From contig JAESUW010000141.1 in NCBI GenBank assembly GCA_016760525.1, forward strand, positions 1 to 54,426: DNA of 54,426 nucleotides, given 5' to 3'. The notes below the pieces were generated by a model. It was not told the origin of the DNA. It did no database searches and saw nothing but the letters and a program-made list of their open reading frames with translations. The stretch comes from Labilibaculum sp. GTDB taxonomy: Bacteria > Bacteroidota > Bacteroidia > Bacteroidales > Marinifilaceae. Shown piece after piece: positions 11,956 through 34,898 of this stretch. Made by a program: the position numbers and the translations under genes. Numbering within the stretch: the stretch's first letter is position 1; each line of letters opens with the position of its first letter.

Positions 11956-13167
11956 ATGGAACTATTTTTAAAAGATATAAGGAATGTAAATAATGAAAAT
12001 AGGCATTATGCTCAGAAACGTAAAATTATTACATTATTAAATAAAGCGGAAAGCCCACTTACGATCCCTGGTATTTGTAAAAAGGTGAAATTAAGTGTTC
12101 CTACAGGAACTAAGCTAATAAACGAGTTAATAGAGAGCCGGATAATTGTTGAGGTAGGCAAAAAAGAAACTGATACCGGGCGACGTCCTTTAGTTTATAA
12201 AGTTGATCCCAATTATGCTTATTGTATTGGAGTTGTGATTTTACTTAAAGGGCTTTCGTTTTCGGTTTTTAACCTTGAAATGGAGGAAGTACACAAATGC
12301 GAGAATAATGATTTTGTTCTCGAAAATACCACAGAGTGTTTGGTTAATGTTGTTGCCTTTATTCAGAATGCAATTGGCAAATCGGAGATTGATCCTAACA
12401 AAATATTAGGATTGGGTATTGGTATTACAGGCCGTATAAACTCCCAAACCGGAAACTCATACAACTATTTTAATTTTCTGGAAAGTTCATTAACCAATTA
12501 TTTTTCCGGTCAACTTTCTGTTCCGGTTTATATCGACAACGATACGCATGTACTGGGATTAGCAGAGCAGGTTTTTGGGGAAGCTAAAAATATTAAAAAT
12601 GCATTTGTTGTTAATCTTAGCCGAGGATTGGGTTTAGCCATAATTGCTAATGGAGAGATTGTGTCAGGAGAACAAGGGTTTGCTGGCGAGTTTGGACATA
12701 TTCAATTTGCTGAATCCGATAAGTTGTGTTTGTGTGGTAAACGAGGATGTTTGGGAACAGAAGTTTCTGGTTATGCCCTTGAGCAAAATTTCAAGGAGCA
12801 AATACAATTAGGAGAGACCTCTTTGCTTTTGAGCAGTAAAGATATTTCGAAGATTCAGTATGGTGATATACTAAAAGCTGCTTGGGAGGGAGATGCACTT
12901 TCAATTTCATTAATACACAATATTGGGTTTAAAATTGGGAAAGCATTAGGAAATATGATAAACCTGTTAAATCCGGGAGTAATAATTATAGGAGGTAAAT
13001 TTGCTTCAGCAACAGAAGTTTTAACAGATTCTATTAAATCGGGAATGACACATACCGCTTTGTCATTGCCTTTACGATCCTGTGAACTTATTTTCTCGTC
13101 TATTGGAGCCAATGCTGATATAAAAGGGGCAGGAGCTATTGTTCTTCGGAAGATGCAATTAATTTAA
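11956..13167 (+). CDS. ROK-family transcriptional regulator (NagC/Mlc type)
   Basis: The N-terminal winged HTH (about residues 20-80: KIITLLNKAESPLTIPGICK...) is followed by a ROK sugar-kinase-like domain. That domain has GEFGHIQF and the zinc motif CLCGKRGCLGTEVSG, both conserved in ROK repressors. Typical size, 403 aa. It is oriented with, and 360 bp ahead of, the PUL1 susC gene, so it is the obvious local regulator. ROK repressors commonly sense amino sugars or other monosaccharides, which fits the N-acylglucosamine 2-epimerase in this locus. It could also act elsewhere. An operator was not identifiable by eye. Confidence 0.87.
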   Translation: MELFLKDIRNVNNENRHYAQKRKIITLLNKAESPLTIPGICKKVKLSVPTGTKLINELIESRIIVEVGKKETDTGRRPLVYKVDPNYAYCIGVVILLKGLSFSVFNLEMEEVHKCENNDFVLENTTECLVNVVAFIQNAIGKSEIDPNKILGLGIGITGRINSQTGNSYNYFNFLESSLTNYFSGQLSVPVYIDNDTHVLGLAEQVFGEAKNIKNAFVVNLSRGLGLAIIANGEIVSGEQGFAGEFGHIQFAESDKLCLCGKRGCLGTEVSGYALEQNFKEQIQLGETSLLLSSKDISKIQYGDILKAAWEGDALSISLIHNIGFKIGKALGNMINLLNPGVIIIGGKFASATEVLTDSIKSGMTHTALSLPLRSCELIFSSIGANADIKGAGAIVLRKMQLI

Positions 13168-13527
13168 GAAGTATAATCAACCATTACGAATATTAATTTA
13201 AATAATGTTGTATGAAGAGATAAAACAGAAGAAATTACCCGTAAAAAAGCCCGCCACATGGCTATAAAGCACATGGGCAGGCGAAGTAAAATGTTCTACA
13301 AAACAAATTTACTTCATATTTTGATAAGAATCTACTATCTGTATTCAATTCTTCATTCTGAAGCATTGAATCTTGTACTTGAACAAAGCAGTTTTTGCCG
13401 TATTCGATAATTGAACATGATGTTTTTTTATCGATGATTTAAGTTTAATGCTTTGTTTTCTGTAGGAATGCTATGTGCATTTCAAAAATATTTATTACAT
13501 GTAAATTATTTATAAACAGTATAATAA
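13168..13527. other. Upstream region of PUL1 susC
   Basis: This 360-bp region lies between the ROK regulator and susC. It contains a GC-rich hairpin oriented for the minus strand (13243-13284). The rest is AT-rich; I see no promoter matching the Bacteroidota consensus well and no clear inverted-repeat operator. Confidence 0.5.
13243..13284 (-). terminator. Minus-strand-oriented GC-rich hairpin upstream of PUL1 susC
   Basis: On the minus strand GCCTGCC pairs with GGCGGGC (one G-T wobble) and is followed by TTTTTT. There is no minus-strand gene for it to terminate, so it either ends an antisense or small RNA made from 13.3-13.5 kb or insulates the ROK gene. Confidence 0.4.
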
Positions 13528-16500
13528 ATGCTAATCTTTATGATGAAAAGACGAATTAGCTCAATGGGCTACGTATTGGCTGTATTCTTCCTTTTAGTAA
13601 GCCAGTTCGTATCAGCACAAGTAATGGTGGTTGGCGGCCAAGTGTCGGATAAAAACGGAGAACCATTAACTGGAGCTACCGTTTTTATAAAAGGTACAAC
13701 TACGGGAACGGTTACTAATTTGGATGGGAATTTTACAATTGGAATTCCTGGTAGTTCAGGAATATTAGTGTTCTCGTTTATTGGTTATGAAACCAAAGAA
13801 GAACGTATTGGAACCAAAAATTTTATAGATGTTATTCTTCAAGAAAAAAGGGAAGGAATTGATGAAATTGTAGTGGTGGGATATGGAACTCAGAAACGAC
13901 AATATGTAACAGGTGCGGTTTCTCAAATTTCAGGAAAAGAGCTTATGAAATCTCCTGTCGGAAATATCAGTAACATGTTGGGAGGTTTGGTCTCTGGTGT
14001 TGTTTCGTTACAGCAATCAGGACAACCGGGAGCCGATGGTGCCAGTATTATTATTCGTGGAACTGAAGCCAAGTATATCGTTGACGGGATTCCACGCAAC
14101 ATCTCTGAAATAGATCCGAACGAAATAGCATCGATATCGGTTCTTAAAGATGCTTCTTCTGCATCGGTTTATGGCTTGGATGCCAACTCAGTTGTAATTG
14201 TTACAACCAAGCGGGGAATAGTTGCTCCTTCCAAAATAACAGTTACAGGAGCTTGTGGAATAAGCTCCAATGCTTTGATGTTGGAGATGCTGGATGGCCC
14301 TGAATATGCTTACTGGTATAATAAAGCTCGTGAAATGGATGGTGATGAGCCTGTTTTTTCTTCTGCACATGTTGAGCAAATGTTGAATGGAGACGATACC
14401 GATGGTTGGGGAAATACCAATTGGTACAAAGAAACTTTTGGGATTGGAAAAACAATGAATTTCAATGTGAACGCAAGAGGAGGTACAGAGAAAATTAAAT
14501 ATTTTGTGTCGCTTGGTAATTATAATCAGGAAGGAAATGTGAAAGGCTTTGATTACGACCGTATTAACCTACGTTCAAATATTGATGCAATAATTTCTGA
14601 TAATATAAGCCTGACTTTTGATATTTCGGGACGAATTGAAGACCGAAACCGTCCTGGCTATTCTGCTTCGCCCGGCGATTGGAATAACATACCACAGCAA
14701 GCTATACGAGCACTTCCTTATGTGCCTCAGGAAATGAATGGAATACCTGTATCAACCCGAACAGCAAGTTCGTATGTGAACCCGCTTGCGGCCTCTGATT
14801 TGACAGGGTATAGAAAGGTGAAAACTCATGTTATTCAAACGAATGTAGCTTTGAACTACAAATTACCATTTGTGAAAGGCTTAAGCGTTAAGTTTATGAC
14901 TGCCTATGATATTACATATCAAACATCAAAGGCTTTTTCTACTCCATACTACACTAATGTTGCAACAGCACCTACTCCCATAACCGAAGATATTAGCTAT
15001 GTATACACTTATGATGCAAGAGGTACAAATACCAGTTTGGTAGAAGGGATGTCGCACAATACGAATTTGACAATAAACGCCAGTATTAAATATGAAAATC
15101 AATTTGGATTACATAATATTTCGGTTTTGGCTTTGATGGAAACAATTAAAAAAGAAGGCAATAAATTTGGAGCTTATGGTTATGGATTTGATATTTTAGA
15201 GTTGGATGAATTAAATTATGCTACTCTTGCCGATAAAACAGAGATTTCCGGTAGTAGTTTTGAACAGCGTCAGGCTGGAGTTTTAGGTCGTGTAAGTTAT
15301 AGTTATGCAAACAAGTATCTGACCGAATTATCATTACGTTACGATGGTAGTTATGTATTTGGAGGAATGGAAAAAGGCAAACGCTGGAGTACATTTCCTG
15401 CAGCGTCCATTGGTTGGCGGGTTTCTGAAGAAGATTGGTTCCGCAACACCTTTAGCAATTTTGACAATTTGAAGTTGAGAGGAAGTGTTGGTTTGACAGG
15501 AACAACTGAAATTGCACCATATTATTATCTGAACACTTTATCGCTTATGGAAGAAGCCGCTGTTTTTGGAGGAAAAGCTGAAAGTGGACTATTAACGTCA
15601 AGACCTGCCAATACCAATCTCACTTGGGCGAAAGCACTTCAATATGATTTAGGTTTTGATGCAAGCTTATGGAATGGGTTGCTGGCTGTTGAATTTGATG
15701 TGTTTTATAAATATATTTTTGATATGCTTAGTGTCTCTGATGCTACATATCCCGATTCGTATGGTGGTTATGTGTATGGATACGAAAACAATAACAAACA
15801 AGACCATAAAGGGTTTGAAATTGCTTTAACTCACCGTAATAAAATTGGCAATTTCTCCTACAAAATTGGTCTTAATGGAACATATACAAAACGCAGATGG
15901 TTAAAATATGGTGACTCTGAGAATACTCCTGATTGGCTGAAACTTACAGGTAAAGAAGTTGGAGCTCAAGTTGGTTTTATTGCAGAAGGCCTATTCCAAA
16001 GTCAGGAAGAAATTGATAATTCGCCACTAATTGTAGGTAAAGACGTTCGTGTGGGTGATATCAAATACAGGGATAGAAATGGCGATGGGAAAATTTCGTA
16101 CGAACAAGATCGTGGATATATTGGAAAATCAGCATACCCGAAATTTATGGGTGGATTTACATTCAATGGCGAATGGAAAGGAATTGATATTGCGATTTTA
16201 GTGCAGGGGGCAGTTGGCCGCGATGTTGCTTTAACCGGAGTATATAGCAATGGTGTTATGGATAATACATCGATGACCAAGCCATTTTATCACGGAGGAA
16301 ACTCTCCTAAATATCTATTGGAAAATTCATGGAGAGAAGATAATAGAGATGGAGAATTCCCGCGTTTGGCTGTAGTAACAGCAAGTTCTAATAATGCTTT
16401 TTCATCCAGTTTTTGGTACCGGAAAGGTGATTACCTGCGTGTAAAGAGTTTACAAATCGGCTATACCGTGCCTAAACATTTAATACAAAAAATAGGTATG

Positions 16501-16650
16501 GATAATGTGAGAATATATGCCGAAGGTCAAAACCTCCTGACATTTAGTCAATTATCGAAATACAATATCGACCCTGAACAACCGGGCGTTTCCAATGGCT
16601 ACTATCCGCAGCAACGGATTATTTCGATGGGTGTAAATTTGACATTTTAA
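13528..16650 (+). CDS. SusC/RagA-family TonB-dependent glycan importer (PUL1)
   Basis: Outer-membrane TonB-linked channel that imports oligosaccharides with its SusD lid. ATGs at 13540 and 13543 would give a more usual signal peptide (MKRRISSMGY... ending VSA, cleavage near residue 30 of the longer form). Residues 36-105 are the carboxypeptidase-regulatory-like barrel extension (VSDKNGEPLTGATVFIKGTT). The plug starts about 113 with IDEIVVVGYGTQKR, followed by a 22-strand barrel ending in ...ISMGVNLTF. The length of 1040 aa is normal. susD follows after 20 bp. The plug lacks the common LQGRAAGV string and reads LGGLVSGVVSLQQ instead, a modest divergence. Substrate unknown. Confidence 0.93.
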   Translation: MLIFMMKRRISSMGYVLAVFFLLVSQFVSAQVMVVGGQVSDKNGEPLTGATVFIKGTTTGTVTNLDGNFTIGIPGSSGILVFSFIGYETKEERIGTKNFIDVILQEKREGIDEIVVVGYGTQKRQYVTGAVSQISGKELMKSPVGNISNMLGGLVSGVVSLQQSGQPGADGASIIIRGTEAKYIVDGIPRNISEIDPNEIASISVLKDASSASVYGLDANSVVIVTTKRGIVAPSKITVTGACGISSNALMLEMLDGPEYAYWYNKAREMDGDEPVFSSAHVEQMLNGDDTDGWGNTNWYKETFGIGKTMNFNVNARGGTEKIKYFVSLGNYNQEGNVKGFDYDRINLRSNIDAIISDNISLTFDISGRIEDRNRPGYSASPGDWNNIPQQAIRALPYVPQEMNGIPVSTRTASSYVNPLAASDLTGYRKVKTHVIQTNVALNYKLPFVKGLSVKFMTAYDITYQTSKAFSTPYYTNVATAPTPITEDISYVYTYDARGTNTSLVEGMSHNTNLTINASIKYENQFGLHNISVLALMETIKKEGNKFGAYGYGFDILELDELNYATLADKTEISGSSFEQRQAGVLGRVSYSYANKYLTELSLRYDGSYVFGGMEKGKRWSTFPAASIGWRVSEEDWFRNTFSNFDNLKLRGSVGLTGTTEIAPYYYLNTLSLMEEAAVFGGKAESGLLTSRPANTNLTWAKALQYDLGFDASLWNGLLAVEFDVFYKYIFDMLSVSDATYPDSYGGYVYGYENNNKQDHKGFEIALTHRNKIGNFSYKIGLNGTYTKRRWLKYGDSENTPDWLKLTGKEVGAQVGFIAEGLFQSQEEIDNSPLIVGKDVRVGDIKYRDRNGDGKISYEQDRGYIGKSAYPKFMGGFTFNGEWKGIDIAILVQGAVGRDVALTGVYSNGVMDNTSMTKPFYHGGNSPKYLLENSWREDNRDGEFPRLAVVTASSNNAFSSSFWYRKGDYLRVKSLQIGYTVPKHLIQKIGMDNVRIYAEGQNLLTFSQLSKYNIDPEQPGVSNGYYPQQRIISMGVNLTF

Positions 16651-16670: not shown

Positions 16671-18308
16671 ATGAAGAATAAAATATTTAGAATAGCCATT
16701 TTGTTCAGTCTCGTTAGCATGTTTGGTTGCGATGAATTGCTTGACACCACTCCAACTGATCGAATCTCTGATAAAGTGGTATGGGAAAATGAAGAAAATG
16801 TAAGCCTTTATAGCAATGTTTTCTATGCGTATATTGATCGTTACGGCAGTTTTGGAAACTCACAGTTTAGCGCCAATTTAACCGAAGGCTTAACCGAAAC
16901 ATTGAAATACGGTTCTTATGTACCTGGCGGTAAGGCAGGAGATGCAAACAACTATGTGTTTACTCCTGAAACCATGTCTTCTTCAGGAAATTTACTTAAC
17001 GCCTGGGGCGTTACCTACGAACGAATTCGTCGTGTAAATGAATTTTTGGTTGGATTGAATGAATATTCAAAATTGGATGAAGAAAAGAATAAGCTTTTTG
17101 AAGGACAAGCCCGGTTTTTTCGTGCATTCTTGTATTTCCAGTTAGCGAAACGTCATGGAGGAGTAATTCTTTATACAGATATGAATCTGCAAAAAGATAA
17201 AGCCCGTTCATCAGCCGAAGAAACATGGAATTTAATAGAAGATGATTTAGATTTTGCAGCTTCTGTTTTGCCTGTTGAATGGTCTGATGCTGATAAAGGT
17301 CGGTTGACCAAAGGAGCCGCTTATGCTCTTAAATCGAGGGCTATGCTTTATGCTGAACGTTGGCAATTGTCAAAAGATGCTGCCGATGCGGTTTTTGCAT
17401 TAAACAAATATGCCTTAACGGATAATTATAAAGATGCCTGGAAGGGCGGTAATTCGGAGTCTATTTTAGAATTTAATTATTTGGTAACAGGCCCCAATCA
17501 TACCTTCGATAAAGATTACTCAACTTTTGGAGAAATAGAGAATCAGGGGGGCAGTGGAACTCCTACTCAGGAAATGGTTGAATCGTATGAGAAAATGGAC
17601 GGAACTATAGTTGATTGGAGTGCATGGCATGTATCCGGCGGAACAACTGACCGACCTCCGTATGAGGATTTAGACCCTCGTTTTGGAGCAACCGTTATTT
17701 TTAACGGATCAGACTGGATGGGTAAAACCATGGAAAACAGTGTTGACGGAACAAATGGGAAATATATGGGATATCGAGAAGATACCTATACCAAAGGAAG
17801 AACAACAACAGGTTACTATTTACGGAAATTCAGAGACGAAAGCCATACCGATTTGGTTACTTATTTAAGTACACAAACATGGGTTGAAATTCGTTTGGCT
17901 GAAGTTTATCTTAACCGTGCAGAAGCGAATTATCGTTTGGGGAAAAGTGGAAGTGCAATGACCGATTTGAATGCAGTGCGTACACGTCCGGGAGTTGGTT
18001 TACCTGGTAAAAGTGGTCTTTCAGGAGATGACCTATTTGCTGCTATTCGTCAGGAACGAAAGATTGAATTGACTTTCGAGGGGCATTTGTACTGGGATAT
18101 GAGGAGATGGAAACTGGCTCATATCGAATACAATGGATATCGTGTGCATGGAATGAAGATTTCGAAAGATCCGGCAGGATATCTGTACGAGTATGTCGAT
18201 TGTGATTTACAGGATCGTAAATTTTTGGAAAAAACCTATGTCTTTCCGGTTCCTTACAGTGAATTGGCAAACAATGCAGCCATTGAGCAATATGATGAAT
18301 GGAAATAA
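16671..18308 (+). CDS. SusD/RagB-family glycan-binding lipoprotein (PUL1)
   Basis: Lipoprotein with Cys20 (SMFGCDELLDTTPTDRIS); the DELLDTTPTDR stretch is the classic SusD N-terminus. Helical TPR core, with RFFRAFLYFQLAKRHGG and the C-terminal RAEANYRLGKSG... IRQERKIELTFEGHLYWDMRRW block typical of SusD. Length 545 aa. It forms the lid over the SusC channel encoded immediately upstream. Confidence 0.93.
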   Translation: MKNKIFRIAILFSLVSMFGCDELLDTTPTDRISDKVVWENEENVSLYSNVFYAYIDRYGSFGNSQFSANLTEGLTETLKYGSYVPGGKAGDANNYVFTPETMSSSGNLLNAWGVTYERIRRVNEFLVGLNEYSKLDEEKNKLFEGQARFFRAFLYFQLAKRHGGVILYTDMNLQKDKARSSAEETWNLIEDDLDFAASVLPVEWSDADKGRLTKGAAYALKSRAMLYAERWQLSKDAADAVFALNKYALTDNYKDAWKGGNSESILEFNYLVTGPNHTFDKDYSTFGEIENQGGSGTPTQEMVESYEKMDGTIVDWSAWHVSGGTTDRPPYEDLDPRFGATVIFNGSDWMGKTMENSVDGTNGKYMGYREDTYTKGRTTTGYYLRKFRDESHTDLVTYLSTQTWVEIRLAEVYLNRAEANYRLGKSGSAMTDLNAVRTRPGVGLPGKSGLSGDDLFAAIRQERKIELTFEGHLYWDMRRWKLAHIEYNGYRVHGMKISKDPAGYLYEYVDCDLQDRKFLEKTYVFPVPYSELANNAAIEQYDEWK

Positions 18309-18319: not shown

Positions 18320-19996
18320 ATGAAGAATTATAAATTTATAGCAATCATGTTGGTTATACTCAGCTTTATGAGTGGCTGCCATGAACCTGACGAATTACTC
18401 CCTTCTGTTTCAAGAGACGGTATTAACAGTATTACGGCAACATTTGCAGACGGAACAGGCTTGTTTGTTGGTTATTTGACCGAAGGCAGTAATGAAATTG
18501 TCATTCCAATTTCATACTACTATCCGGAAAGCAGCAATAATCAGGTTACAGAATTGCAATTGACCAATATGCGTGTAGCTGCAAATCTGGATGATAATGT
18601 AATTGTTAGTCCTGCTCTTTTGTATTTGGACTTAACAGAGGAAAACTCAATAATAGTTACCGATCAGGTTAAAACACAAAAGGAATATATTATAAAAGGA
18701 GAAATCCGAAAAAGTGATGAGTGCTTGTTAGAGGAATTTAAATTGCCCTCATTAGATATGATTGGTGTAATTAACGAAGCAAGCAAAACAATTTCTTTGG
18801 TTGCAATCGGAAATTTGGAGCCTGCATTGGCTGAGCTTACACTTTCATATCACGCAAGTATTTCACCCGATCCTACAGCAACAGCATTGGATTATAATAG
18901 CGATATAGAACTAACAGTTACTGCTCATGATGGTACAACAAAAAATGTTTATACCGTTAAAAAAGAAGTGCCGGATAAATTACTGTATGGTATTCGTTCG
19001 GGAAGTGCCAAGTTGATGTTTGAGAAGCAGTTGAAAGTAGATTGTGGCATTACTTTGGATAATCTGACCGGAGGAATAGCCGTTACCGGAGATTATGTGA
19101 TTCTGAATACACGGACAGCAAATAGTGTTTACCTGAATGCAAAAACCGGTGAGAAAGTTGGTGAAATTGATTTAGGAGCTTTGAAAGGCTCACTTATAAA
19201 TTTCTATAATACAGCCGATGATGATGGAAATGTACTGATTTGTAATTTGGCACCTAATGCAGGTTCGTTTAAAGTTTGGAAGCTTGCTTCAGTAACTGCA
19301 ACTCCTGAATTGATGATCGAATGGGATGGTGGAGTACCAATTGGAAGGAAGCTGTCTGTTAACGGGAGTATTGATGAAAATGCAATTATTACAGCTCCAA
19401 TACTGGCCGCAGGACAACAAATTGCTCGCTGGACAGTAGTAAATGGAGTGTTGACTTCGCAAACACCGGAAATTGTTACCATGAGTGGTTTAACCAAAGG
19501 TTGGGGAACCAATGTAGATGTTGTCTCCTCATCGGATACAGATGTTACAAGTGATTATTTTGTTGCTTCGTATTCTGATAACACATTTGCATGGGTAAAT
19601 GGAACCACGAATGCGGTACGTAAAAAATTAGATGGAATTAGTGCTAATTATATTCCGAATGCAGTTGATCATATCAAGTTTAATAATGCAGAATATGTAA
19701 GCTTGAACTGGGTAAATAGTTTTACCTGGGGATCTTCTGATGCCGTATGGTTATTGGATGTAAGCAGTGATGTAAATTTTGAAGGCAACCTCGAAACAAA
19801 AACGTGTAATGCAGTTATTTGGGAATCTCTCCGAAATGTGTACGGCGGGAAATCAGTTTCTCCGGCAGTAGCAAATGGAAACGGAACAGGCGATGTTGCA
19901 TTGCGGGTTTCAGACGATGGATATTTCCTTTATCTATATTTCATGTTTACAAATGGTTATGTAGTCGGTTATCAGTTCGACTGTATCGACATGTAG
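18320..19996 (+). CDS. DUF5018-like surface lipoprotein in the SusE/F position (PUL1)
   Basis: Lipoprotein with Cys20 (SFMSGCHEPDE). Two Ig-like modules of about 90 residues (near 30-120 and 125-205, the second ending TVKKEVPDK) are followed by a domain of about 350 residues rich in short beta-strands that resembles a beta-propeller (blades such as GYFLYLYFMFTNGYVVGY). This architecture fits DUF5018-containing proteins found beside SusCD pairs. It starts 11 bp after susD, so it is the third member of the surface complex and probably a glycan-binding protein. No catalytic motif seen. The DUF assignment is by pattern and should be checked by profile search. Confidence 0.65.
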   Translation: MKNYKFIAIMLVILSFMSGCHEPDELLPSVSRDGINSITATFADGTGLFVGYLTEGSNEIVIPISYYYPESSNNQVTELQLTNMRVAANLDDNVIVSPALLYLDLTEENSIIVTDQVKTQKEYIIKGEIRKSDECLLEEFKLPSLDMIGVINEASKTISLVAIGNLEPALAELTLSYHASISPDPTATALDYNSDIELTVTAHDGTTKNVYTVKKEVPDKLLYGIRSGSAKLMFEKQLKVDCGITLDNLTGGIAVTGDYVILNTRTANSVYLNAKTGEKVGEIDLGALKGSLINFYNTADDDGNVLICNLAPNAGSFKVWKLASVTATPELMIEWDGGVPIGRKLSVNGSIDENAIITAPILAAGQQIARWTVVNGVLTSQTPEIVTMSGLTKGWGTNVDVVSSSDTDVTSDYFVASYSDNTFAWVNGTTNAVRKKLDGISANYIPNAVDHIKFNNAEYVSLNWVNSFTWGSSDAVWLLDVSSDVNFEGNLETKTCNAVIWESLRNVYGGKSVSPAVANGNGTGDVALRVSDDGYFLYLYFMFTNGYVVGYQFDCIDM

Positions 19997-21736: not shown

Positions 21737-23083
21737 ATGAAAAATCCAATTATTTATATACTCCTTTTAACGATTGTTCTGTTTTCTGCGTGCAACCAGA
21801 ATACGAAGAAATCGACAGAAATAGTAAAACCCAAATTAATGTGGTTCGATGCAGAGGCAAATTTCGAGCGTTTCAGTTATCCTGATTCCATCGATTTCTA
21901 TCTGGAAAAGATTAAAAATATTGGCTTTACCGATGCAGTAGTTGACATTCGTCCCATTACCGGAGAAGTACTATATAATAGTAAATTTGCTCCACAAATG
22001 AGAACGTGGGATGGTTTCAATAGACCCGACTTCGATTATCTGGGGCATTTTATTACCAAAGCACATGAACTTGGATTAAAAGTACACGCATTGCTGAACA
22101 CCTTCGTTGGCGGACATAACTATTTCGATCGCGGACAAACATATACGACCAATCCTGAGTGGGCGAGCATGGTTTATACACCCGATAAGGGGATTGTATC
22201 AATTATGACTCTGAAGAAAAAATATTCAGCCATGATCAATCCAATCAATCCGGATTTTCAGGCACACATGTTGAATGTACTGAAAGAAGTAACGGCTAAA
22301 TATCCGGAACTCGATGGTTTTATGCTTGACCGGGTACGTTACGATGGAATTATGGCAGACTTTTCTGATCTGTCGAAAACCAAATTTGAAGAATATATCG
22401 GTGAAAAATTAGAGTCATTTCCGGCTGATATTTACGAATGGAAAACCGATGCCAATGGAAAGAGTGATTACAAGCGTGGAAAATATTTTAACAAATGGAT
22501 TGAATGGCGGGCAAAAAACATTTATGATTTTATGGCATTAGCACGCCAAACAGTGAAGCAGATAAATCCGAATATATCTTTTGGAACCTACACAGGAGCA
22601 TGGTATCCCTCGTATTTTGAAGTAGGAGTAAACTGGGCAAGCAATCAATACGATGTATCTAAAGATTACGATTGGGCAACACCTGAATACAAGAATTTTG
22701 GTTATGCCGAGTTGCTCGATTTGTACGCCACTGGTAATTACTATACCAATGTTACAATGGAAGAATACTTAAAAAACAACAATGTCGTGATTAATGAGAC
22801 CGATAGCAAAGGAGCCAGAGGAACATGGTATTGTGTAGAAGGTTCTTGTGAAAAAATCAAAGGAATTTTAAAAGGACATCAGTTTTTGGGTGGAGTTTTG
22901 GTCGATCAGTTTTATGAAAATCGTCCACAATTGTCGCGTACTATTGCTATGAACTTGCAGGCTTCTGATGGATTGATGGTTTTCGATATTGTTCATATTA
23001 TTCGTAAAAATTTATGGAAGGAAGTTGAAGAAGGCTTCCAGATGGCTAAAGACGAAAAAACTTTCACCAAAGAAAAAAAATAA
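21737..23083 (+). CDS. Amylase-like TIM-barrel lipoprotein, putative glycoside hydrolase (paralogue 2)
   Basis: Lipoprotein, Cys19 (LFSACNQNTKK), without the acidic tract of paralogue 1, so it may face the periplasm. It shares the same landmarks with its upstream neighbour: KLMWFDAEANFERF, IGFTDAVVDIRPITGE, LGLKVHALLNTFVGG, LDGFMLDRVRYDG, and VGVNWASNQYD. A tandem duplication with divergence is the simplest origin. Length 448 aa, single domain. Different lipoprotein signals suggest sequential action on the same glycan at two locations, which is inference. Confidence 0.7.
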   Translation: MKNPIIYILLLTIVLFSACNQNTKKSTEIVKPKLMWFDAEANFERFSYPDSIDFYLEKIKNIGFTDAVVDIRPITGEVLYNSKFAPQMRTWDGFNRPDFDYLGHFITKAHELGLKVHALLNTFVGGHNYFDRGQTYTTNPEWASMVYTPDKGIVSIMTLKKKYSAMINPINPDFQAHMLNVLKEVTAKYPELDGFMLDRVRYDGIMADFSDLSKTKFEEYIGEKLESFPADIYEWKTDANGKSDYKRGKYFNKWIEWRAKNIYDFMALARQTVKQINPNISFGTYTGAWYPSYFEVGVNWASNQYDVSKDYDWATPEYKNFGYAELLDLYATGNYYTNVTMEEYLKNNNVVINETDSKGARGTWYCVEGSCEKIKGILKGHQFLGGVLVDQFYENRPQLSRTIAMNLQASDGLMVFDIVHIIRKNLWKEVEEGFQMAKDEKTFTKEKK

Positions 23084-26318: not shown

Positions 26319-26375
26319 TTGATTCATCTTTTTTTTACAAAGCCTTCATGTTTATCTATTAAAAAAATAAAACGA

Positions 26376-28208
26376 ATGAAATTTGAATTTATTGATACTG
26401 CAATTATTATAGGATACATTATTTTGAGTATTGTTATTGGTTTATGGTTATCGAAACGAGCCAATAAAAATCTTCAAAATTATTTTTTGGGAGGGAACCA
26501 ATTGAAATGGTATTTTTTGGGACTTTCAAACGGTTCGGGTATGTTCGATATTTCGGGAACAGCATGGACGGTTACCATTTTGTTTGTATATGGAATGAAA
26601 AGTATTTGGATTCCCTGGCTCTGGCCGGTGTGGAATCAAATTTTTATCATGGTATTTATGGCGGTGTGGCTTCGTCGGTCGGGAGTAATGACCGGAGCCG
26701 AATGGATCACCACCCGCTTTGGTGACGGCAAAGGTGGAAAATTGGCACACATTATAGTGGTGGTTTTTGCCATCATTAGTGCAATTGGTTTTATAGCTTA
26801 CTTCTTTGTTGGTATCGGAAAATTTGCAGTAACCATTTTTCCATGGGACTTGACATTAACAATCGGTTCAACCCTAATAATTTCAGAGTATGTATATGCA
26901 ACAATCCTGCTTTCGCTGACCACCCTCTATGTAATTAAAGGAGGAATGTACAGCGTGGTAGCTACCGAAGTAATGCAGTTTTTTGTGATGACAATTGCCT
27001 GTGTTGCTGTTTCATGGTTTGCTATGCATGAAGTATCTGTCGAACAAATAAATGCTGCAGTACCTAATGGATGGTTTGATATTATGCCTTCGTGGAGCAC
27101 CAGCCTCGATTGGACAGGTACTTTTGATCAGGTAAACGACAAGATTTCGGAAGATGGCTTTGGTATGCTGGGAGCACTAGTGATGATGATGTTTTTTAAA
27201 GGCATTTTTTCAAGCTTGGCGGGGCCGGTACCAGGTTACGATATGCAGCGAATATTGTCAACCCAAACACCAAGAGATGCTGCTAAAATGAGTGGGTTAA
27301 CATCGATGGTACTATATCCTCCCCGCTATTTAATGATTGCAGGATTAGGAATACTTGGACTGGTATTCGTTGCTCCCATAATGAAAGCAGATGGAGGTAA
27401 TCTCGATTTTGAGAAAATTCTGCCATATGTAATTAATAATTTATTACCCGTTGGATTGAAAGGAATCATTCTTGCAGGTTTGTTGGCAGCATTTATGTCA
27501 ACCTTCTCAGCATTTGTAAATGCAGCACCTGCTTATATAGTAAACGATTTATACAAACGATACATTAATCCACATGCCTCTGATAAAAAATACATTCGTA
27601 TTAGCTATGTAGCTTCAATTGGGATTGTGGTTGTGGGAATTATCTTCGGATTATTTTCAGGATCAATTAATTCACTTACACTCTGGATCACTTCGTCCTT
27701 GTATGGAGGTTACGTGGCAGCCAATGTATTAAAATGGATTTGGTGGCGTTTTAACGGTTACGGATATTTCTGGGGAATGATTGCAGGTTTGGCCGGATCA
27801 ACCGTGAAATTTTTGTTTTTTCCGAATACCCCTGACATTTATATATTCCCGATTATATTAGTGATGGCTTCGATAGGAAGCTTCCTCGGATGCTATCTTT
27901 CAGCTCCTGTCGATGATGAAATACTGATCGAATTTTACAAAAAAGTACGTCCTTGGGGTTGGTGGAATCCAGTATATGAAAAAGCCCGGATAATTTACCC
28001 CGAAATCACAAAGAATAAGGATTTGGTGCGTGATGGTGTTAATGTCTTGGTTGGAATTGTATGGCAAATGACCTTGATTACTGCACCCATATATTTGGTA
28101 GTTCGACATTATCAAGGACTAGTTGTTTCGCTAATCTTGTGTGCAATTACTTCAGCAATATTGAAGTTTAACTGGTTAGATAAAATTAAAGATTATGAAA
28201 AGATATAG
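26376..28208 (+). CDS. Sodium:solute symporter (SSS/SLC5 family)
   Basis: The ORF track begins at a TTG (26319); MKFEFIDTAIIIGYI at 26376 is the natural start (610 aa). About 14 membrane helices. Family blocks: GLWLSKRANKNLQNYFLGG, GSGMFDISGTAWTV, GAEWITTRFG, AGPVPGYDMQRILST, and LLAAFMSTFSAFVNAAP. It imports the monosaccharide or disaccharide product across the inner membrane with Na+. SSS proteins paired with an N-acylglucosamine epimerase commonly carry sialic acid or N-acetylhexosamines, so such a substrate is likely but not proven. The last 14 bp overlap the next gene. Confidence 0.9.
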   Translation: MKFEFIDTAIIIGYIILSIVIGLWLSKRANKNLQNYFLGGNQLKWYFLGLSNGSGMFDISGTAWTVTILFVYGMKSIWIPWLWPVWNQIFIMVFMAVWLRRSGVMTGAEWITTRFGDGKGGKLAHIIVVVFAIISAIGFIAYFFVGIGKFAVTIFPWDLTLTIGSTLIISEYVYATILLSLTTLYVIKGGMYSVVATEVMQFFVMTIACVAVSWFAMHEVSVEQINAAVPNGWFDIMPSWSTSLDWTGTFDQVNDKISEDGFGMLGALVMMMFFKGIFSSLAGPVPGYDMQRILSTQTPRDAAKMSGLTSMVLYPPRYLMIAGLGILGLVFVAPIMKADGGNLDFEKILPYVINNLLPVGLKGIILAGLLAAFMSTFSAFVNAAPAYIVNDLYKRYINPHASDKKYIRISYVASIGIVVVGIIFGLFSGSINSLTLWITSSLYGGYVAANVLKWIWWRFNGYGYFWGMIAGLAGSTVKFLFFPNTPDIYIFPIILVMASIGSFLGCYLSAPVDDEILIEFYKKVRPWGWWNPVYEKARIIYPEITKNKDLVRDGVNVLVGIVWQMTLITAPIYLVVRHYQGLVVSLILCAITSAILKFNWLDKIKDYEKI

Positions 28209-28908
28209 AAGAATGATTAACTTTCTTATCTGCTTTATTGTATTGATATCTGTGGATATTAGTATGACAAAAAGTGCAGGTGCTCAAAATACATTGCCTT
28301 ACGACACAACATACACCTTTTCTCATTATAAGGTGAGACGTGCCTTTTACGAAGGACTTCCGAACAGAAAAAATGAAATTGTTTTTTTAGGCAATAGTAT
28401 TACTGAAAATGGAGACTGGAATGAGTTATTTCAAAATAAGAAGATAGTAAATCGAGGTATTGGAGGTGATGTTTGCTGGGGCTTGCATAATCGTCTCGAC
28501 GAGGTGCTGAGTTCGCAACCAAAATGTATTTTTCTGATGATTGGAATAAACGATATCGGACGGAGTGTTCCTGTTGATATTATTGCTGAAAAAATACGGG
28601 AAATACTTCAGGAAATTCAGGCACAATCGCCTTCAACAAAAGTTTATTTACAAAGTGTTTTACCTATTAACGAGGAGACTATTTGGTACGCTTACATGAA
28701 AAATAAATCAGATAAAATAGTACAGCTAAACAAGCAACTAAAAATAATTGCAGCAAATGAAAATGTCCGGTTTATAGATTTGTATTCCCGTTTTGTTGAT
28801 GACAAAGGGAATTTAAAATTGGAATACACGGCCGATGGCATTCATTTAAGTGCTGCCGGATATTTACACTGGCGTGATATTTTTAAGGAAAAAGGAATTC
28901 GTTTTTAG
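28195..28908 (+). CDS. SGNH/GDSL-family esterase, exported
   Basis: Signal peptide to about residue 30. All four SGNH blocks are present: Ser68 in FLGNSITENG, Gly in RGIGGD, Asn in IGINDIG, and Asp214/His217 in ADGIHLS. The 237-aa length suits a single-domain hydrolase of the platelet-activating-factor-acetylhydrolase-like group. In glycan loci these remove O-acetyl groups. It overlaps the symporter gene by 14 bp, so it belongs to the same message. Confidence 0.88.
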   Translation: MKRYRRMINFLICFIVLISVDISMTKSAGAQNTLPYDTTYTFSHYKVRRAFYEGLPNRKNEIVFLGNSITENGDWNELFQNKKIVNRGIGGDVCWGLHNRLDEVLSSQPKCIFLMIGINDIGRSVPVDIIAEKIREILQEIQAQSPSTKVYLQSVLPINEETIWYAYMKNKSDKIVQLNKQLKIIAANENVRFIDLYSRFVDDKGNLKLEYTADGIHLSAAGYLHWRDIFKEKGIRF

Positions 28909-28945: not shown

Positions 28946-29884
28946 ATGATAAAGATTAAAGGTACTTTTTTAGATGAAATTAGTCATGATATTCCTCACC
29001 AAAATTGGGGGAAACTTGAATGGGAACAAGATTTTGCTCACATGAAGCTAATGGGTATCAATACAGTGATTTTAATCCGAAGTGGATATCAGAAATGGCT
29101 GACCTACCCATCGAAAATACTTACTGACCGTGAAGGAGCATATTTACCATCGGTTGATCTGGTACAGATGTTTCTGGAATTGAGTGAAAAATACAAAATG
29201 GATTTTTACTTCGGATTATATGATTCAGGGCGTTATTGGATCAATGGTGATTTTCAGAAAGAGCTGGATCTGAACAAAGTACTGATTGACGAAGTATGGA
29301 ATACTTACGGACACATGAAAGCGTTTAAAGGATGGTATATTTCGCAGGAATGTAGTCGTAAAACCGATGCAATTATTAATATGTATGCAGGTTTGGGTAA
29401 CCATTGCAAGGCAGTTTCCAATAACCTGACTACCTTAATATCACCCTATATTGATGGAATTAAAAATATCAGTCAGTATACCGCCGAAACAACACGTGGA
29501 AAAGGAGTGAGTCTTCAACGTCACGAGCAGGATTGGAGTGAAATATTCGATGGAATAAAAAATGCGGTTGATATCGTTGCCTTTCAGGATGGACATGTAA
29601 GTTTCGACGAGCTGGATGAGTTTCTGATGGTAAACAAGAAAATGGCAGACCGTTTTGGACTTCGAAGCTGGACAAATTCGGAAACGTTCGACCGCGACAT
29701 GCCGATTAAGTTTCTTCCTATAAAATGGGAAAAGCTGCTAATGAAACTGAATGCAGCCGAACGGGCAGGAATGGAGCAGGCCATCACCTTCGAGTTTTCA
29801 CATTTTATGAGCCCGCAGTCGGCATATTTACAGGCCGGACATTTGTACAATCGGTACAAGGAATATTTGGATAGATTAAAATAA
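28946..29884 (+). CDS. DUF4434 TIM-barrel protein, putative cytoplasmic glycoside hydrolase
   Basis: No signal peptide: the N-terminus is MIKIKGTFLDEISHDIPHQNW, typical of DUF4434, a glycoside-hydrolase-like TIM barrel. Strand-end motifs include MGINTVILIRSGY, MDFYFGLYDSGRYW, FKGWYISQEC (Glu in a likely acid/base position), and DIVAFQDGHVSF. Length 312 aa. Family relatives are often exported; absence of a signal suggests it works in the cytoplasm on the product imported by the SSS symporter two genes upstream. The activity of the family is not established as far as I know. Confidence 0.72.
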   Translation: MIKIKGTFLDEISHDIPHQNWGKLEWEQDFAHMKLMGINTVILIRSGYQKWLTYPSKILTDREGAYLPSVDLVQMFLELSEKYKMDFYFGLYDSGRYWINGDFQKELDLNKVLIDEVWNTYGHMKAFKGWYISQECSRKTDAIINMYAGLGNHCKAVSNNLTTLISPYIDGIKNISQYTAETTRGKGVSLQRHEQDWSEIFDGIKNAVDIVAFQDGHVSFDELDEFLMVNKKMADRFGLRSWTNSETFDRDMPIKFLPIKWEKLLMKLNAAERAGMEQAITFEFSHFMSPQSAYLQAGHLYNRYKEYLDRLK

Positions 29885-30171: not shown

Positions 30172-31347
30172 ATGAGAGATTTTAAAAAACTAGCAGAACA
30201 ATATCAAAGAGAATTGCTTGAAAATGTTGTTCCATTTTGGTTAAATAATTCACAGGATAAAGAATTTGGCGGGTATTTTACCAGTCTTGATCGCGAAGGA
30301 AAAGTATTTGATACAGATAAGTTTATTTGGTTACAAGGACGCGAAGTATGGCTTTTTTCAATGCTCTACAATCAGCTTGAAAAAAAACAGGAGTGGCTGG
30401 ATGCTGCAATTCATGGAGCTGAATTTCTGAAGAAATATGGTCATGATGGAAACCTTAACTGGTATTTTTCACTTACCCGCGAAGGAAAAGCATTGGTTGA
30501 ACCTTACAATATTTTTTCTTATGTATTTGCATGTATGGCTTTTGGACAGTTGAGTAAAGCAACAGGAAATCAGGAGTATGCAGATATTGCACTAAAGACC
30601 TTCGACATCATTATGTCGAAAAAGAATACCCCAAAGGGGCGTTGGGACAAAGGATTTCCGGGTACGCGAGATCTGAAAAATTTTGCATTACCAATGATCC
30701 TTTGTAATCTGGCACTTGAAATTGAACATCTGCTAGATGCTGATTTTTTGAAAGAAACCATGGAAACTTGTATCCACGAAGTGATGGATGTGTTTTACCT
30801 GCCGGATTTGGACTTGGTGGTTGAAAATCTCAATGTCGATGGTAGTCTTTCTGACACTTTCGATGGACGATTGTTGAATCCCGGTCATGCCATTGAAGCG
30901 ATGTGGTTCATCATGGATTTGGGAACACGATTGAAGCGTCCCGAATTAATTACAAAAGCTAATGATATTACTATTCGTATGCTTGAATACAGTTGGGACA
31001 AACAGTACGGAGGAATCTTCTATTTTATGGATCGCTTGGGACTTCCGCTTCAACAATTGGAATGGGATCAGAAACTGTGGTGGGTGCATATCGAAACACT
31101 CATAAGCCTGCTAAAAGGATATGAATTAACAGGTTCAGCTAAAAGTTTGGAGTGGTTTGAAAAAGTACATCAATACACTTGGGCGCATTTTAAAGACACA
31201 AAGTATCCCGAGTGGTTTGGATATCTCAATCGTCAGGGGGAAGTGTTATTGCCATTGAAAGGTGGAAAATGGAAAGGCTGTTTCCATGTGCCACGCGGAA
31301 TGTTTCAGTGCTGGCAAAGTTTGGAGGCAATTTCAAAAAAACAATAA
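30172..31347 (+). CDS. N-acylglucosamine 2-epimerase (AGE/RnBP family)
   Basis: A cytoplasmic (alpha/alpha)6-barrel enzyme of 391 aa with no signal peptide. The C-terminal stretch KGGKWKGCFHVPRGM and EWFGYLNRQGEV strongly match mammalian renin-binding protein-type N-acylglucosamine 2-epimerases (GlcNAc to ManNAc), more than cellobiose or mannobiose 2-epimerases. Catalytic-type His occurs in LNPGHAIEAMWF and WWVHIETLISLL. This is the clearest clue to the PUL1 product: an N-acylated hexosamine. Repeat copy B precedes it and the FAD oxidoreductase follows after 21 bp. Confidence 0.87.
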   Translation: MRDFKKLAEQYQRELLENVVPFWLNNSQDKEFGGYFTSLDREGKVFDTDKFIWLQGREVWLFSMLYNQLEKKQEWLDAAIHGAEFLKKYGHDGNLNWYFSLTREGKALVEPYNIFSYVFACMAFGQLSKATGNQEYADIALKTFDIIMSKKNTPKGRWDKGFPGTRDLKNFALPMILCNLALEIEHLLDADFLKETMETCIHEVMDVFYLPDLDLVVENLNVDGSLSDTFDGRLLNPGHAIEAMWFIMDLGTRLKRPELITKANDITIRMLEYSWDKQYGGIFYFMDRLGLPLQQLEWDQKLWWVHIETLISLLKGYELTGSAKSLEWFEKVHQYTWAHFKDTKYPEWFGYLNRQGEVLLPLKGGKWKGCFHVPRGMFQCWQSLEAISKKQ

Positions 31348-31368: not shown

Positions 31369-33276
31369 ATGAGAAAATATTTGATTATAATAGTGCTGCT
31401 TTTTTTCAGTTTGCTACATGTTCGGGCTCAGTCCCAAACCGAAATGTCTGTAATAACAACCGATGTGTTGATTATTGGCGGTGGTGCCAGCGGAACTATG
31501 GCAGGTATTCAGGCCGCACGAATGGGTGTGTCAGCTATCATTGTAGAAGAAACACCCTGGCTGGGAGGAATGCTTACAGCCGCCGGAGTAAGTGCTATCG
31601 ATGGAAATTATCGTCTGCATTCAGGTTTGTGGGAGGAATTCAGACAGTTGTTGTACCTGTATTATGGAGGAGCTAATGCTGTAAAAACAGGATGGGTAAG
31701 CAATGTGTTGTTTGAGCCGAAGGTAGGAGAGGAAATACTTTCTCAACTTACAGATGCGGAAAAAAACCTGACCGTACTAAGGGAAGCACGGTTGGAAAAC
31801 ATTCAAAAAACAAACAAAAGATGGGAGACGATCATTCTGCAATCCGGGAAAAAATATAAAATCAATGCACGTATTGTTATTGATGCTACCGAATTGGGTG
31901 ATGTAGCAAAACAAGTAGGCATAGCCTACGACATAGGTATGGATTCTAGATCCGAAACAGGCGAATCTATAGCTCCGGAACAAGCTAATAACATTATTCA
32001 AGACCTGACTTATACGGTTATTTTGAAAGATTACGGAGCTTTGGTTGATGCAACAATTCCACAACCCGACGGCTACGATCCTTCGCCTTTCTTGTGTACT
32101 TGTGCAGGAAAATGTGATGGAGACAAGCTGGGACGTAAATTATGGGAATGCGATTTTATGATGAAATACGGGAAGCTGCCCAATGGCTACTACATGATTA
32201 ACTGGCCCATTTCCGGCAACGACTTTTATCTGAATGTCATAGAAATGAGTCGTAAAGAAAGGCAGATTGCATTGCAAAAAGCAAAAGATTTTACATTGAA
32301 TTATCTATATTATCTGCAAACCGATTTAGGATTTAAACACTTGGGCATTGCCGATGATGTATATCCAACAGATGATGGTTTACCCTTTATACCTTACTAC
32401 AGAGAGTCGAGACGCATTAAAGGAATGGTACAGTTTACCATAAACGATTTGGCAAGACCTTTTGAGCAGACTACAGCATTGTATCGTACAGGCATTGCTG
32501 TTGGCGATTATCCTGTCGACCATCACCATCAGGCATATCCGGAAGCAGAATCCCTGCCCGAGTTGCATTTCTATCCGGTTCCTTCGTACTCATTGCCTTT
32601 GGGAACATTAATTCCTAAAGGAACAGATCATTTTGTGGTAGCAGAAAAATCAATTTCGGTTACCAACATTGTAAACGGAACCACACGATTGCAGCCAGTT
32701 TGTATTTTAATTGGTCAGGCTTCGGGAGTTTTGGCTGCTCTGGCAGTTCAGAATAACACTACACCAGCAAAGGTGAAGGTTCGAAAAGTACAGAATGCTT
32801 TGCTCGATGCCGGTGCCTATCTGATGCCTTACTCCGATGTAGAAAAAGGATCAGTTGCATTTCAGTCATTACAACGCATTGGAGCAACAGGGATACTGAA
32901 AGGAGAAGGGAAAAATATTGGTTGGGAGAATCATACTTATATTTATCCGGATAGTCTGATGACCAGAACGGATCTGGCAGAGGGATTGACTGGTTGGATC
33001 AACCAGGATCAACTGAAGGTAGAAAGTGAATTTGTTTCGTATCAGGAATGTCTGGAACTGATCAAAGTTTTGGGTAAACAATTCCATCAGGCATGCGGAA
33101 AAAAGAGATTGTCACGATTGGAAAAGGAAGCAGGAAAAATATTAGAAGCAAATACAATTGTAGTACCTGAATTGCATGTTCCTGTAAACCGGGCAATATT
33201 TGCAATTCTTTTAGATCAGTTATTAGATCCGTTTGAAATTCGGCAGGTCGATCATCAGGGGCAGTTCATAGATTAA
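31369..33276 (+). CDS. Exported FAD-dependent oxidoreductase with SLH-like C-terminal region
   Basis: A Sec-type signal peptide (ending VRAQS, residue 22) precedes a Rossmann FAD domain with TDVLIIGGGASGTMAGIQAA and a FAD_oxidored-type body. A Cys-rich loop (FLCTCAGKCDGDK) lies mid-protein. Residues about 488-560 (YSDVEKGSVAFQSLQRIGAT... MTRTDLAEGL) resemble one S-layer-homology repeat. Periplasmic or surface flavoproteins of this group are common in Bacteroidota glycan loci, with unknown reactions. Its presence implies an oxidation step on the sugar outside the cytoplasm, which is inference. The gene is 21 bp after the epimerase. Confidence 0.82.
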   Translation: MRKYLIIIVLLFFSLLHVRAQSQTEMSVITTDVLIIGGGASGTMAGIQAARMGVSAIIVEETPWLGGMLTAAGVSAIDGNYRLHSGLWEEFRQLLYLYYGGANAVKTGWVSNVLFEPKVGEEILSQLTDAEKNLTVLREARLENIQKTNKRWETIILQSGKKYKINARIVIDATELGDVAKQVGIAYDIGMDSRSETGESIAPEQANNIIQDLTYTVILKDYGALVDATIPQPDGYDPSPFLCTCAGKCDGDKLGRKLWECDFMMKYGKLPNGYYMINWPISGNDFYLNVIEMSRKERQIALQKAKDFTLNYLYYLQTDLGFKHLGIADDVYPTDDGLPFIPYYRESRRIKGMVQFTINDLARPFEQTTALYRTGIAVGDYPVDHHHQAYPEAESLPELHFYPVPSYSLPLGTLIPKGTDHFVVAEKSISVTNIVNGTTRLQPVCILIGQASGVLAALAVQNNTTPAKVKVRKVQNALLDAGAYLMPYSDVEKGSVAFQSLQRIGATGILKGEGKNIGWENHTYIYPDSLMTRTDLAEGLTGWINQDQLKVESEFVSYQECLELIKVLGKQFHQACGKKRLSRLEKEAGKILEANTIVVPELHVPVNRAIFAILLDQLLDPFEIRQVDHQGQFID

Positions 33277-33560: not shown

Positions 33561-33791
33561 TATTATTAAAAGGCAGAAAATTCGTATGTTCTTTGTCATT
33601 ATCTTTCAACTTCCCCTAAAGAGAACTTTTAAACCTTCCCTTTAGGGGATTTTAGGAGTGTAATAATACAATTTTCATTTAGATAACTAAATTTGTTTTG
33701 AAGACAGCCTTTTTCAGGAGAGAGTTAATTTAAGAGAGAACTCAGTTTGGGTGTTTTTCCCAAAATATCAGTAACAAAAAACAAAAAAAAC
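33561..33791. other. Leader region of the CE2-type esterase gene
   Basis: It contains a CCCCTAAAG...CTTTAGGGG inverted repeat followed by AGGAGTG, similar to the block at 23190-23220, and TTTTGAAGACAGCCTTTTT, which matches the end of the MITE-like element at 23097. This is probably a mosaic of repeat debris. Confidence 0.45.
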
Positions 33792-34898
33792 ATGAAGCAG
33801 CTATTTATTTTCGCAATTGCAATGATACTTTTTGTATCTGCCAAAGGACAAGAAGAGTGGCAAAATATTCCGGCAAGCCATCCATCAATTCAGTATATGG
33901 GGCGTGTTGAACTTCAGGATAATAAAGCCATGTTTAATTGGCCGGGAGTTGTGATTTCTGCACGTTTTACTGGCTCCGAATTAGGTATTCGTATTAAAGG
34001 TGGAAGTCGTAACTATTTTAATGTGTGGGTCGATGACAGGCAGGAAAAAGTCTTACATGCAGTAAATGATACCGTATGGTGGTATCCCGAATATTTAGAG
34101 AGAGGCGAACACAAATTACGATTAGTAAAACGTACCGAAGCAGATATGGGAATGGCTGTCTTTTCAGGTATCTATATCGGAAAAAAAGAATCACTCCTGA
34201 TGCCAGTACCGCTTCCTGAACGAAAGATATTGTTTATTGGGAATTCAATTACCTGTGGTTACGGAGCAGAAGGAAAAGATAAAACAGAGTCATTTCTTCC
34301 GGAGACCGAAAACTGCGAAAAGTCGTACGCAACGATTATTGCGCGAGCTTTTGGAGCTCAATATCAACTCATATCTCATTCTGGCTTGGGAATGGTTCGC
34401 AATTACGGTGACAAGCAAAGGCTATCAGTAAAAATAAAGCCTATGCCTGCACGGCTGGAATACCTATTCGATAAAGATTCAACCAAACAATTTAATTTGA
34501 ATCTTTTTAAGCCCGATGCAGTGGTAATTAATTTGGGAACAAACGATTTTTCTACGCAGCCTTTTCCTTATGAGAACGATTTTACAGAGGCAGGAGTCAA
34601 ACTTATTCAGAAAATACGGAGCAGTTTTCCTGGAGTAAAAGTTTTTTGTATTACTGGGCCGATGATTAACGAGCCGTGTTATTCTTATACAAAGAAAATA
34701 GTTGAATCAGTTCGAACCGAGATGAATACCTCTGATATTATATTTGTGGGTGTACCAAAAGATTTGCTAAATACAGGTAGCGATTTGGGCTCAGATTGGC
34801 ACCCTTCCTATAAGGGACAAATAAAAGTTACAAAGCTCATTCTTCCGGTTATATCCACAGTGTTGGATTGGAATTATGTATCGGATGAACTAAAGTGA
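33792..34898 (+). CDS. CE2-type acetyl esterase (jelly-roll plus SGNH domain), exported
   Basis: The ORF track starts at 33747, but MKQLFIFAIAMILFVSAKGQ at 33792 gives a proper signal peptide. Residues about 25-135 form the N-terminal beta-sandwich of carbohydrate esterase family 2 (FNVWVDDRQEKV, RGEHKLRLVKRTE). Residues 140-368 are the SGNH hydrolase: Ser152 in FIGNSITCGYG, Asn in INLGTNDFS, and the C-terminal Asp-Trp-His in SDWHPSYKGQ. CE2 enzymes deacetylate sugars. This is the last gene of PUL1 and the second esterase in it. Confidence 0.85.
   Translation: MKQLFIFAIAMILFVSAKGQEEWQNIPASHPSIQYMGRVELQDNKAMFNWPGVVISARFTGSELGIRIKGGSRNYFNVWVDDRQEKVLHAVNDTVWWYPEYLERGEHKLRLVKRTEADMGMAVFSGIYIGKKESLLMPVPLPERKILFIGNSITCGYGAEGKDKTESFLPETENCEKSYATIIARAFGAQYQLISHSGLGMVRNYGDKQRLSVKIKPMPARLEYLFDKDSTKQFNLNLFKPDAVVINLGTNDFSTQPFPYENDFTEAGVKLIQKIRSSFPGVKVFCITGPMINEPCYSYTKKIVESVRTEMNTSDIIFVGVPKDLLNTGSDLGSDWHPSYKGQIKVTKLILPVISTVLDWNYVSDELK

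Follow-up and report, generated by a model that had tools for sequence, protein, structure and literature searches.

The window studied here, meaning the whole stretch of 54,426 nucleotides that was analysed, is contig JAESUW010000141.1 of Labilibaculum sp. (assembly GCA_016760525.1), and domain searches of its proteins recognize between positions 11956 and 34898 a polysaccharide utilization locus (PUL) of 14 genes, all on the + strand, whose target glycan is the subject of this analysis. A previous interpretation made from the letters alone (the sequence-only reading) had drawn attention to the same co-directional locus, and all the genes that it named were found, in that orientation and where it had placed them. 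The pair of SusC and SusD with linked glycan-active genes is the gene content by which a PUL is recognized; a PUL as such is ordinary in this genome (3.5 Mb, 63% complete, the window being its contig C49), because 45 SusD matches occur there. The genes of the locus are as follows.

11956..13167, + strand: ROK-family regulator of the NagC/Mlc type with an N-terminal helix-turn-helix (PF00480, 169 bits)
13528..16650, + strand: SusC-type TonB-dependent transporter (CarboxypepD_reg and Plug domains)
16671..18308, + strand: SusD-type surface glycan-binding lipoprotein (PF07980, E 9e-53; PF14322)
18320..19996, + strand: DUF5018 lipoprotein in the SusE position (PF16410, 423 bits; lipobox and acidic tail)
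20312..21697, + strand: GHL10a, a lipoprotein with GHL10 barrel, DUF4985 domain and acidic CGGKSDDDYKWEWD tail (PF02638, PF16373)
21737..23083, + strand: GHL10b, a lipoprotein with GHL10 barrel and DUF4985 domain, without acidic tail (PF02638, PF16373)
23455..24903, + strand: dimetal metallophosphoesterase with MetallophosN and MetallophosC domains (PF16370, PF16371)
24900..26318, + strand: DUF5009 multi-pass membrane acyltransferase, HGSNAT-like (PF16401, 191.7 bits; DVLR motif)
26319..28208, + strand: SSS sodium:solute symporter (PF00474, E 1.8e-29)
28195..28908, + strand: exported GDSL/SGNH acyl-esterase (PF13472, E 3.9e-29)
28946..29884, + strand: DUF4434 TIM barrel without signal peptide (PF14488, 264 bits; PDB 4h41, E 1.4e-134)
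30172..31347, + strand: cytoplasmic N-acyl-D-glucosamine 2-epimerase of the RnBP/AGE type (NF052547, 706 bits; PDB 6f04 and 2gz6, E ~1e-150)
31369..33276, + strand: exported FAD-dependent oxidoreductase with an N-terminal signal peptide (PF12831, 318 bits)
33747..34898, + strand: exported acyl-esterase of the CE2 type (PF17996 CE2_N, 84.6 bits; PF13472)

Conservation of this gene set in other genomes had been named beforehand as a check, and the genes do co-occur across Bacteroidota. A scan of GTDB contigs with an alignment of GHL10 gave 340 relatives, of which the best 80 were fetched. The fetched relatives are mainly Bacteroidota (Bacteroides, Tannerella, Dysgonomonas, Muribaculaceae, Labilibaculum, Maribellus, Sunxiuqinia), and the carriers come from gut, mouth, marine, sediment, groundwater and sludge habitats. 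SusC adjoins GHL10 in 50 of the 80 loci, and among these 50 DUF5018 is present in 46, GHL10a (and thus both types of GHL10) in 45, the phosphoesterase in 38, DUF4434 in 31, DUF5009 in 29 and the epimerase in 19, the last figure being an undercount, as further copies lie just beside the fetched loci. Labilibaculum sp. K2S (L021) has the gene set of the window in the same order, with only DUF5009 missing, and in the extended regions of several genomes the series DUF4434, transporter, AGE, SusC, SusD, DUF5018 is found upstream of the GHL10 genes. Since DUF4985 occurs in just 3 of 149 genomes drawn from the order, the window's genome included, the locus is widespread but not common. A contrast is offered by Ignavibacteria, where GHL10b stands without nearby PUL genes in 8 loci (L085, L088-L092, L094, L098), and where this homologue may have an older housekeeping role. 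A protein of the ADP-ribosylglycohydrolase family lies within the locus in L069, L070 and L086.

The tandem pair had been described in the sequence-only reading as amylase-like TIM-barrel lipoproteins. The two barrel lipoproteins are indeed there, with GHL10 scores of 43.6 and 66.3 bits against a Pfam cut-off of 27.9, but the likeness to amylases did not stand: α-amylase (GH13)-like barrels are ruled out by the GHL10 and DUF4985 domains and by the Foldseek and profile matches. For the AlphaFold2 (AF2) model of GHL10b (pLDDT 93.9), Foldseek ranks first Cwp19 (PDB 5oq2/5oq3; E ~1e-17), a peptidoglycan lytic transglycosylase of Clostridioides difficile (PMC6016235), and next the C-terminal domain of PgaB (GH153; PDB 4p7n, 4p7q, 6au1; E 1e-12); later matches include barrels of the β-amylase type and, at rank 25, the GH156 exosialidase (PDB 6s04; E 1e-9), the resemblance to β-amylase (GH14) being a general fold match only. 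In the profile comparison of GHL10b Cwp19 alone is significant (E 2.7e-15); similarity to GH153 (E 0.45) and GH156 (E 0.25) is not, and membership of GHL10b in either of these families by sequence was rejected on these values. Cwp19 and GHL10a/b have both Pfam family and fold in common, although Cwp19 carries CWB2 motifs and has a role in autolysis, whereas GHL10a/b belong to a PUL.

The fold match to PgaB bears on the possibility that the target is partly de-N-acetylated poly-β-1,6-GlcNAc (dPNAG) or another biofilm exopolysaccharide resembling it, which GHL10a/b would cut as PgaB does, while DUF5009 would re-acetylate glucosamine (GlcN), GH20 and DUF4434 would finish the degradation, and the esterases would remove acyl groups. 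PgaB, whose substrate is a partly de-N-acetylated GlcNAc polymer, requires GlcN in it (PMC5933820), and GH20 is present in 9 related loci. Yet PgaB has a biosynthetic role, its sequence match to GHL10b falls short of significance as given above, and PNAG offers nothing to do for the epimerase, the phosphoesterase or a phosphodiester glycosidase; we consider this target improbable.

In an alignment of 63 sequences covering both types of GHL10, D198 and R201 (GHL10b numbering) are among the invariant residues, and D198 sits at a barrel strand end in the AF2 model; the catalytic Asp of PgaB (GH153) is D474. In the profile alignment R201 falls opposite Arg202 of GH156, in a D-x-x-R-[FY] stretch common to the two proteins, and Arg202 binds the carboxylate of sialic acid (PMC6811678); Arg202 belongs to the GH156 active-site set (Asp14, His134, Arg129, Arg202, Asn346), of which it is the one residue compared here. 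Because of this correspondence with a carboxylate-holding arginine, it is plausible that the bond cut lies close to an acidic group (the lactyl group of MurNAc, a phosphate or a sialic carboxylate). The same alignment, the place of GH156 among the fold matches and the occurrence of SASA proteins in 12 related loci would also agree with sialylated glycans as the target, the GHL10 proteins then being GH156-like sialidases, the esterases acting on O-acetyl sialic acid, the SSS symporter importing sialic acid and the epimerase being of the NanE kind. The profile match to GH156 lacks significance, as stated above, and the distribution of NanA, considered below, also speaks against this interpretation.

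The sequence-only reading had further taken the phosphoesterase and the esterases as pointing to phosphate and ester decoration, and a substrate class of N-acylated amino sugars with such decoration appears moderately supported; related loci add NAGPA, GDPD and GH20. In the metallophosphoesterase D125, Q127, D163, N192, H193, D194, H272, H315 and H317 are invariant, and the metal ligands are intact in all 30 homologues aligned; its model (pLDDT 90.8) has a calcineurin-like fold resembling the dimetal phosphatase 2nxf, GpdQ and purple acid phosphatase. In B. pyogenes and its relatives a copy of GHL10b and the metallophosphoesterase are fused in one protein of ~890 residues. This fused protein is the second GHL10b copy in L030, L035, L037, L039, L083 and L016:12968-15667. 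The commonest gene beyond the window set, found in 22 related loci, encodes a phosphodiester glycosidase of the NAGPA family, 9 of whose 28 copies (20 genomes) lie inside the locus; these proteins form a divergent subset of NAGPA/DUF2233, a family that includes the human enzyme (PDB 6pki), and their nearest PDB entry is 3ohg. In L034 the place of the phosphoesterase is taken by a different one of the calcineurin type, accompanied by a GDPD; L095 has another GDPD. Altogether, at least one phospho-gene occurs in 43 of the 50 SusC-containing related loci.

The match of DUF5009 to PF16401 is above the cut-off, and a DxxR motif (DVLR) can be read near its N terminus. In a study of TmAT proteins DUF5009 intermixes with the HGSNAT clade, no DUF5009 protein having been assayed according to that paper (PMC12423673). 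The window protein shares with the transmembrane acetyltransferases HGSNAT and NagX the grouping with HGSNAT and the DxxR motif, but its score against the NagX glucosamine N-acetyltransferase equivalog NF046061 is weak (46.2 bits, cut-off 480). An HGSNAT-like role would imply free glucosamine ends in the periplasm. Among 22 locus-carrying genomes, all 15 full-length copies of DUF5009 (E < 1e-50) lie inside the locus versus ~0.08 expected, and on this count the association of genes in the locus is far from chance, the probabilities assuming independent genomes although the genomes are related and were selected for holding the locus. The epimerase exceeds the equivalog cut-off of NF052547 (600 bits), and copies of this strong class lie in the locus or within ~10 kb of it in 17 of the 22 genomes; both proteins, which had been regarded as pointers to N-acylated amino sugars, are core parts. 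The other 5 strong-class copies (G072, G150, G151, G152, G153) all adjoin a NanA homologue elsewhere in the genome, and together with the equivalog score they anchor the predicted activity of the epimerase on ManNAc.

NanA itself gave no match in the window's genome (G000, 63% complete), and in the relatives its homologues are located away from the locus, B. pyogenes excepted. In the latter (G059:C5:31554-33568) the usual epimerase is replaced by one of the NanE type, which lies together with a NanA homologue within a few kb of the locus. The nan clusters of Bacteroidota have the same epimerase class, but they contain a NanA homologue and this locus contains none. Because NanA is missing from the locus, ManNAc is more likely to derive from the glycan itself, and because the nan clusters are separate from it, sialic acid seems an unlikely source. 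It counts in favor of sialylated glycans as the target that, at other sites of these genomes, AGE of this class is paired with NanA; but NanA is absent from the locus (in B. pyogenes it is next to it), 5 genomes have their separate cluster of strong-class epimerase and NanA, and the phosphoesterase, NAGPA and DUF5009 would be left without role, so that such a target seems to us distinctly unlikely.

The presence of NAGPA-like genes in related loci and of an HGSNAT-like gene in the locus raises a different possibility, since the human enzymes act on host or eukaryotic glycans that contain phosphate or free glucosamine, such as N-glycans with GlcNAc-P-mannose, the GPI glycan or heparan-type chains; a GH92 in the neighbouring PUL would be in keeping with targets of this kind. 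They are quite improbable in our view: marine, groundwater and sludge Bacteroidota are among the carriers, and mannosidases, heparin lyases and GH89 do not recur in the related loci.

The location of the enzymes can be approached through their N termini. Net acid after the lipoprotein cysteine has mean values of 2.3 for GHL10a, 3.1 for NAGPA, 2.5 for SusD and −0.8 for GHL10b, and the acidic tail of GHL10a is kept in its orthologues. By analogy with the signal that directs lipoprotein export in Bacteroidetes (in B. fragilis SDDDD; PMC5080379), our analysis suggests that GHL10a and NAGPA are on the surface and GHL10b is periplasmic. DUF4434 does lack a signal peptide in the window, as had been claimed, while its relatives in loci of the MFS type carry a Tat signal: with a few loci counted twice, a Tat-type signal is present on 18 of 21 DUF4434 proteins of MFS loci (2 of the 3 that have none are truncated by the edge of the locus), and 14 of 15 in SSS loci have no signal, L095 having one of each kind. 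The membrane side of DUF4434 thus appears to match the type of importer, with the proviso that the SSS loci may go back to a single ancestor, and the window protein is predicted to be a cytoplasmic glycosidase.

These results can be combined in a pathway, for which gene content, conservation, fold, intact metal ligands and export signals are established by the analysis, while we infer every catalytic step and the substrate. On the surface GHL10a would cut the polymer, joined in some relatives by the phosphodiester glycosidase, and SusC/SusD with DUF5018 (a likely surface glycan-binding protein) would bring the fragments in. In the periplasm GHL10b would shorten the glycan, the metallophosphoesterase would remove or split phosphate links, and the GDSL and CE2 esterases would strip acyl groups, while DUF5009, like HGSNAT ahead of NAGLU, would move acetyl from cytoplasmic acetyl-CoA to free glucosamine ends. 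In the version of the window the SSS symporter would import a small saccharide to be split by cytoplasmic DUF4434, AGE would convert ManNAc to GlcNAc, and the ROK protein would regulate the locus.

That the target of this conserved Bacteroidota PUL is a microbial amino-sugar glycan with phosphate and O-acyl groups has, in our judgment, about an even chance of being correct. A microbial surface polymer is the best inference because the nearest relative of the barrels cleaves peptidoglycan and the carriers inhabit gut, mouth, sediment and sludge. Gram-positive peptidoglycan with its teichoic linkage unit provides ManNAc in combination with O-acyl groups, free GlcN and a linkage through GlcNAc-1-phosphate. 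For this reason we prefer as the most economical specific substrate, though at a low probability, the Gram-positive wall, that is, de-N-acetylated and O-acetylated peptidoglycan with the linkage unit ManNAc-GlcNAc-1-phosphate-6-MurNAc. A widespread and so far undescribed class of PUL by which Bacteroidota feed on Gram-positive wall glycan, through surface and periplasmic GHL10, removal of the teichoic linkage by phosphoesterase and phosphodiester glycosidase, HGSNAT-type re-acetylation before hydrolysis and recovery of ManNAc by the epimerase, is possible at the same low probability.

Several observations weigh against these interpretations. Identity between GHL10a/b and Cwp19 is only ~15%, and at the position of the invariant R201 Cwp19 does not have an Arg, for which reason the two may differ in the bond that they cut. 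Amidase, lysozyme and muropeptide transporter were not seen as recurrent neighbours in the related loci; MurQ, present in most genomes, lies away from the locus and is uninformative, and MurNAc may never be a product. NAGPA is absent from this window, and the exported FAD enzyme is unexplained, having no place in the pathway. Finally, some relatives are without DUF5009, epimerase or phosphoesterase, and the locus of G072 retains its core without any of the three. This last case, like the variability of the accessory genes between loci, would be expected if several glycans were served, with SusC-SusD-DUF5018-GHL10 as the only constant part and the genes for phospho, acetyl and epimerase functions as interchangeable add-ons; this is unlikely in our opinion, as full-length DUF5009 is confined to the locus, the epimerase recurs beside it, and some species have the fusion of GHL10 and phosphoesterase.

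While the architecture of the PUL is known already, the combination of genes appears to be new. The sequence-only reading had proposed an undescribed degradation system, and in agreement with it no published description of the gene set was found in open papers, a scope without most subscription journals and PUL databases. In the same literature we found nothing on DUF4985 and nothing that treats GHL10 together with PUL and SusD, and in a broader look the matching papers do not describe the gene set. For BT_0435 the matches were confined to papers on salmon that have no bearing on it. The locus brings together five families of little or no characterisation (DUF4985/GHL10, DUF5018, DUF5009, DUF4434, MetallophosN/C) in one pathway, which occurs in bacteria of gut, oral, marine and sludge habitats, and a single substrate would therefore assign functions to all five. 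With DUF5009, a bacterial equivalent of the step that HGSNAT carries out in humans becomes directly testable, and if the target is truly a bacterial wall or capsule, Bacteroidota would possess a dedicated system for feeding on other bacteria.

Some annotations of the locus are less specific than others. The ROK regulator scores far under the NagC/Mlc equivalog cut-offs, the SSS symporter is under the cut-off of the SSS superfamily model, and a PDB search gave only weak Rossmann matches for the FAD enzyme and nothing informative for DUF5018. The CE2_N and SGNH domains of the CE2-type esterase are above the Pfam cut-off, and its AxeC2 equivalog score is 132.6 bits, below the cut-off of 500. The frames of SSS and CE2 as listed begin at TTG, each with an in-frame ATG shortly inside, and the internal ATG is the likely start of both (MKFEFIDTAI... 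in SSS). From the phosphoesterase through DUF5009 and SSS to GDSL, neighbouring genes touch or overlap (spacings of −4, 0 and −14 bp), and wider gaps precede SusC (360 bp), GHL10a (315), the phosphoesterase (371), the epimerase (287) and CE2 (470). Rfam and tRNA scans over the window gave no matches, and a scan for promoters and terminators gave results no better than chance.

In the rest of the window an IS3-like transposase pair (HTH_Tnp_1 and rve, 9810-10981) lies directly upstream of the locus. A second, separate PUL (36612-52032) contains SusC/SusD, the GH92 mentioned above, a SASA esterase, a DUF5005/DUF4185 protein, ROK and MFS; the divergent regulator that accompanies it (35459-36247) is of the GntR/UTRA type. 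This PUL also includes a protein of 589 residues (48089-49858) that matches nothing in Pfam up to E 1. A 283-residue protein in a SusE-like position (41263-42114) has a sub-threshold match to DUF4625 only. Further upstream are a SusE/DUF5111-DUF5114 protein followed by GH53 (68-3003), which looks like the end of a galactan PUL, a subtilisin-like protease with a type IX secretion tail followed by a PorV-like protein (3275-6978) and, on the minus strand, a Gag-type aspartyl protease protein (7823-9148).

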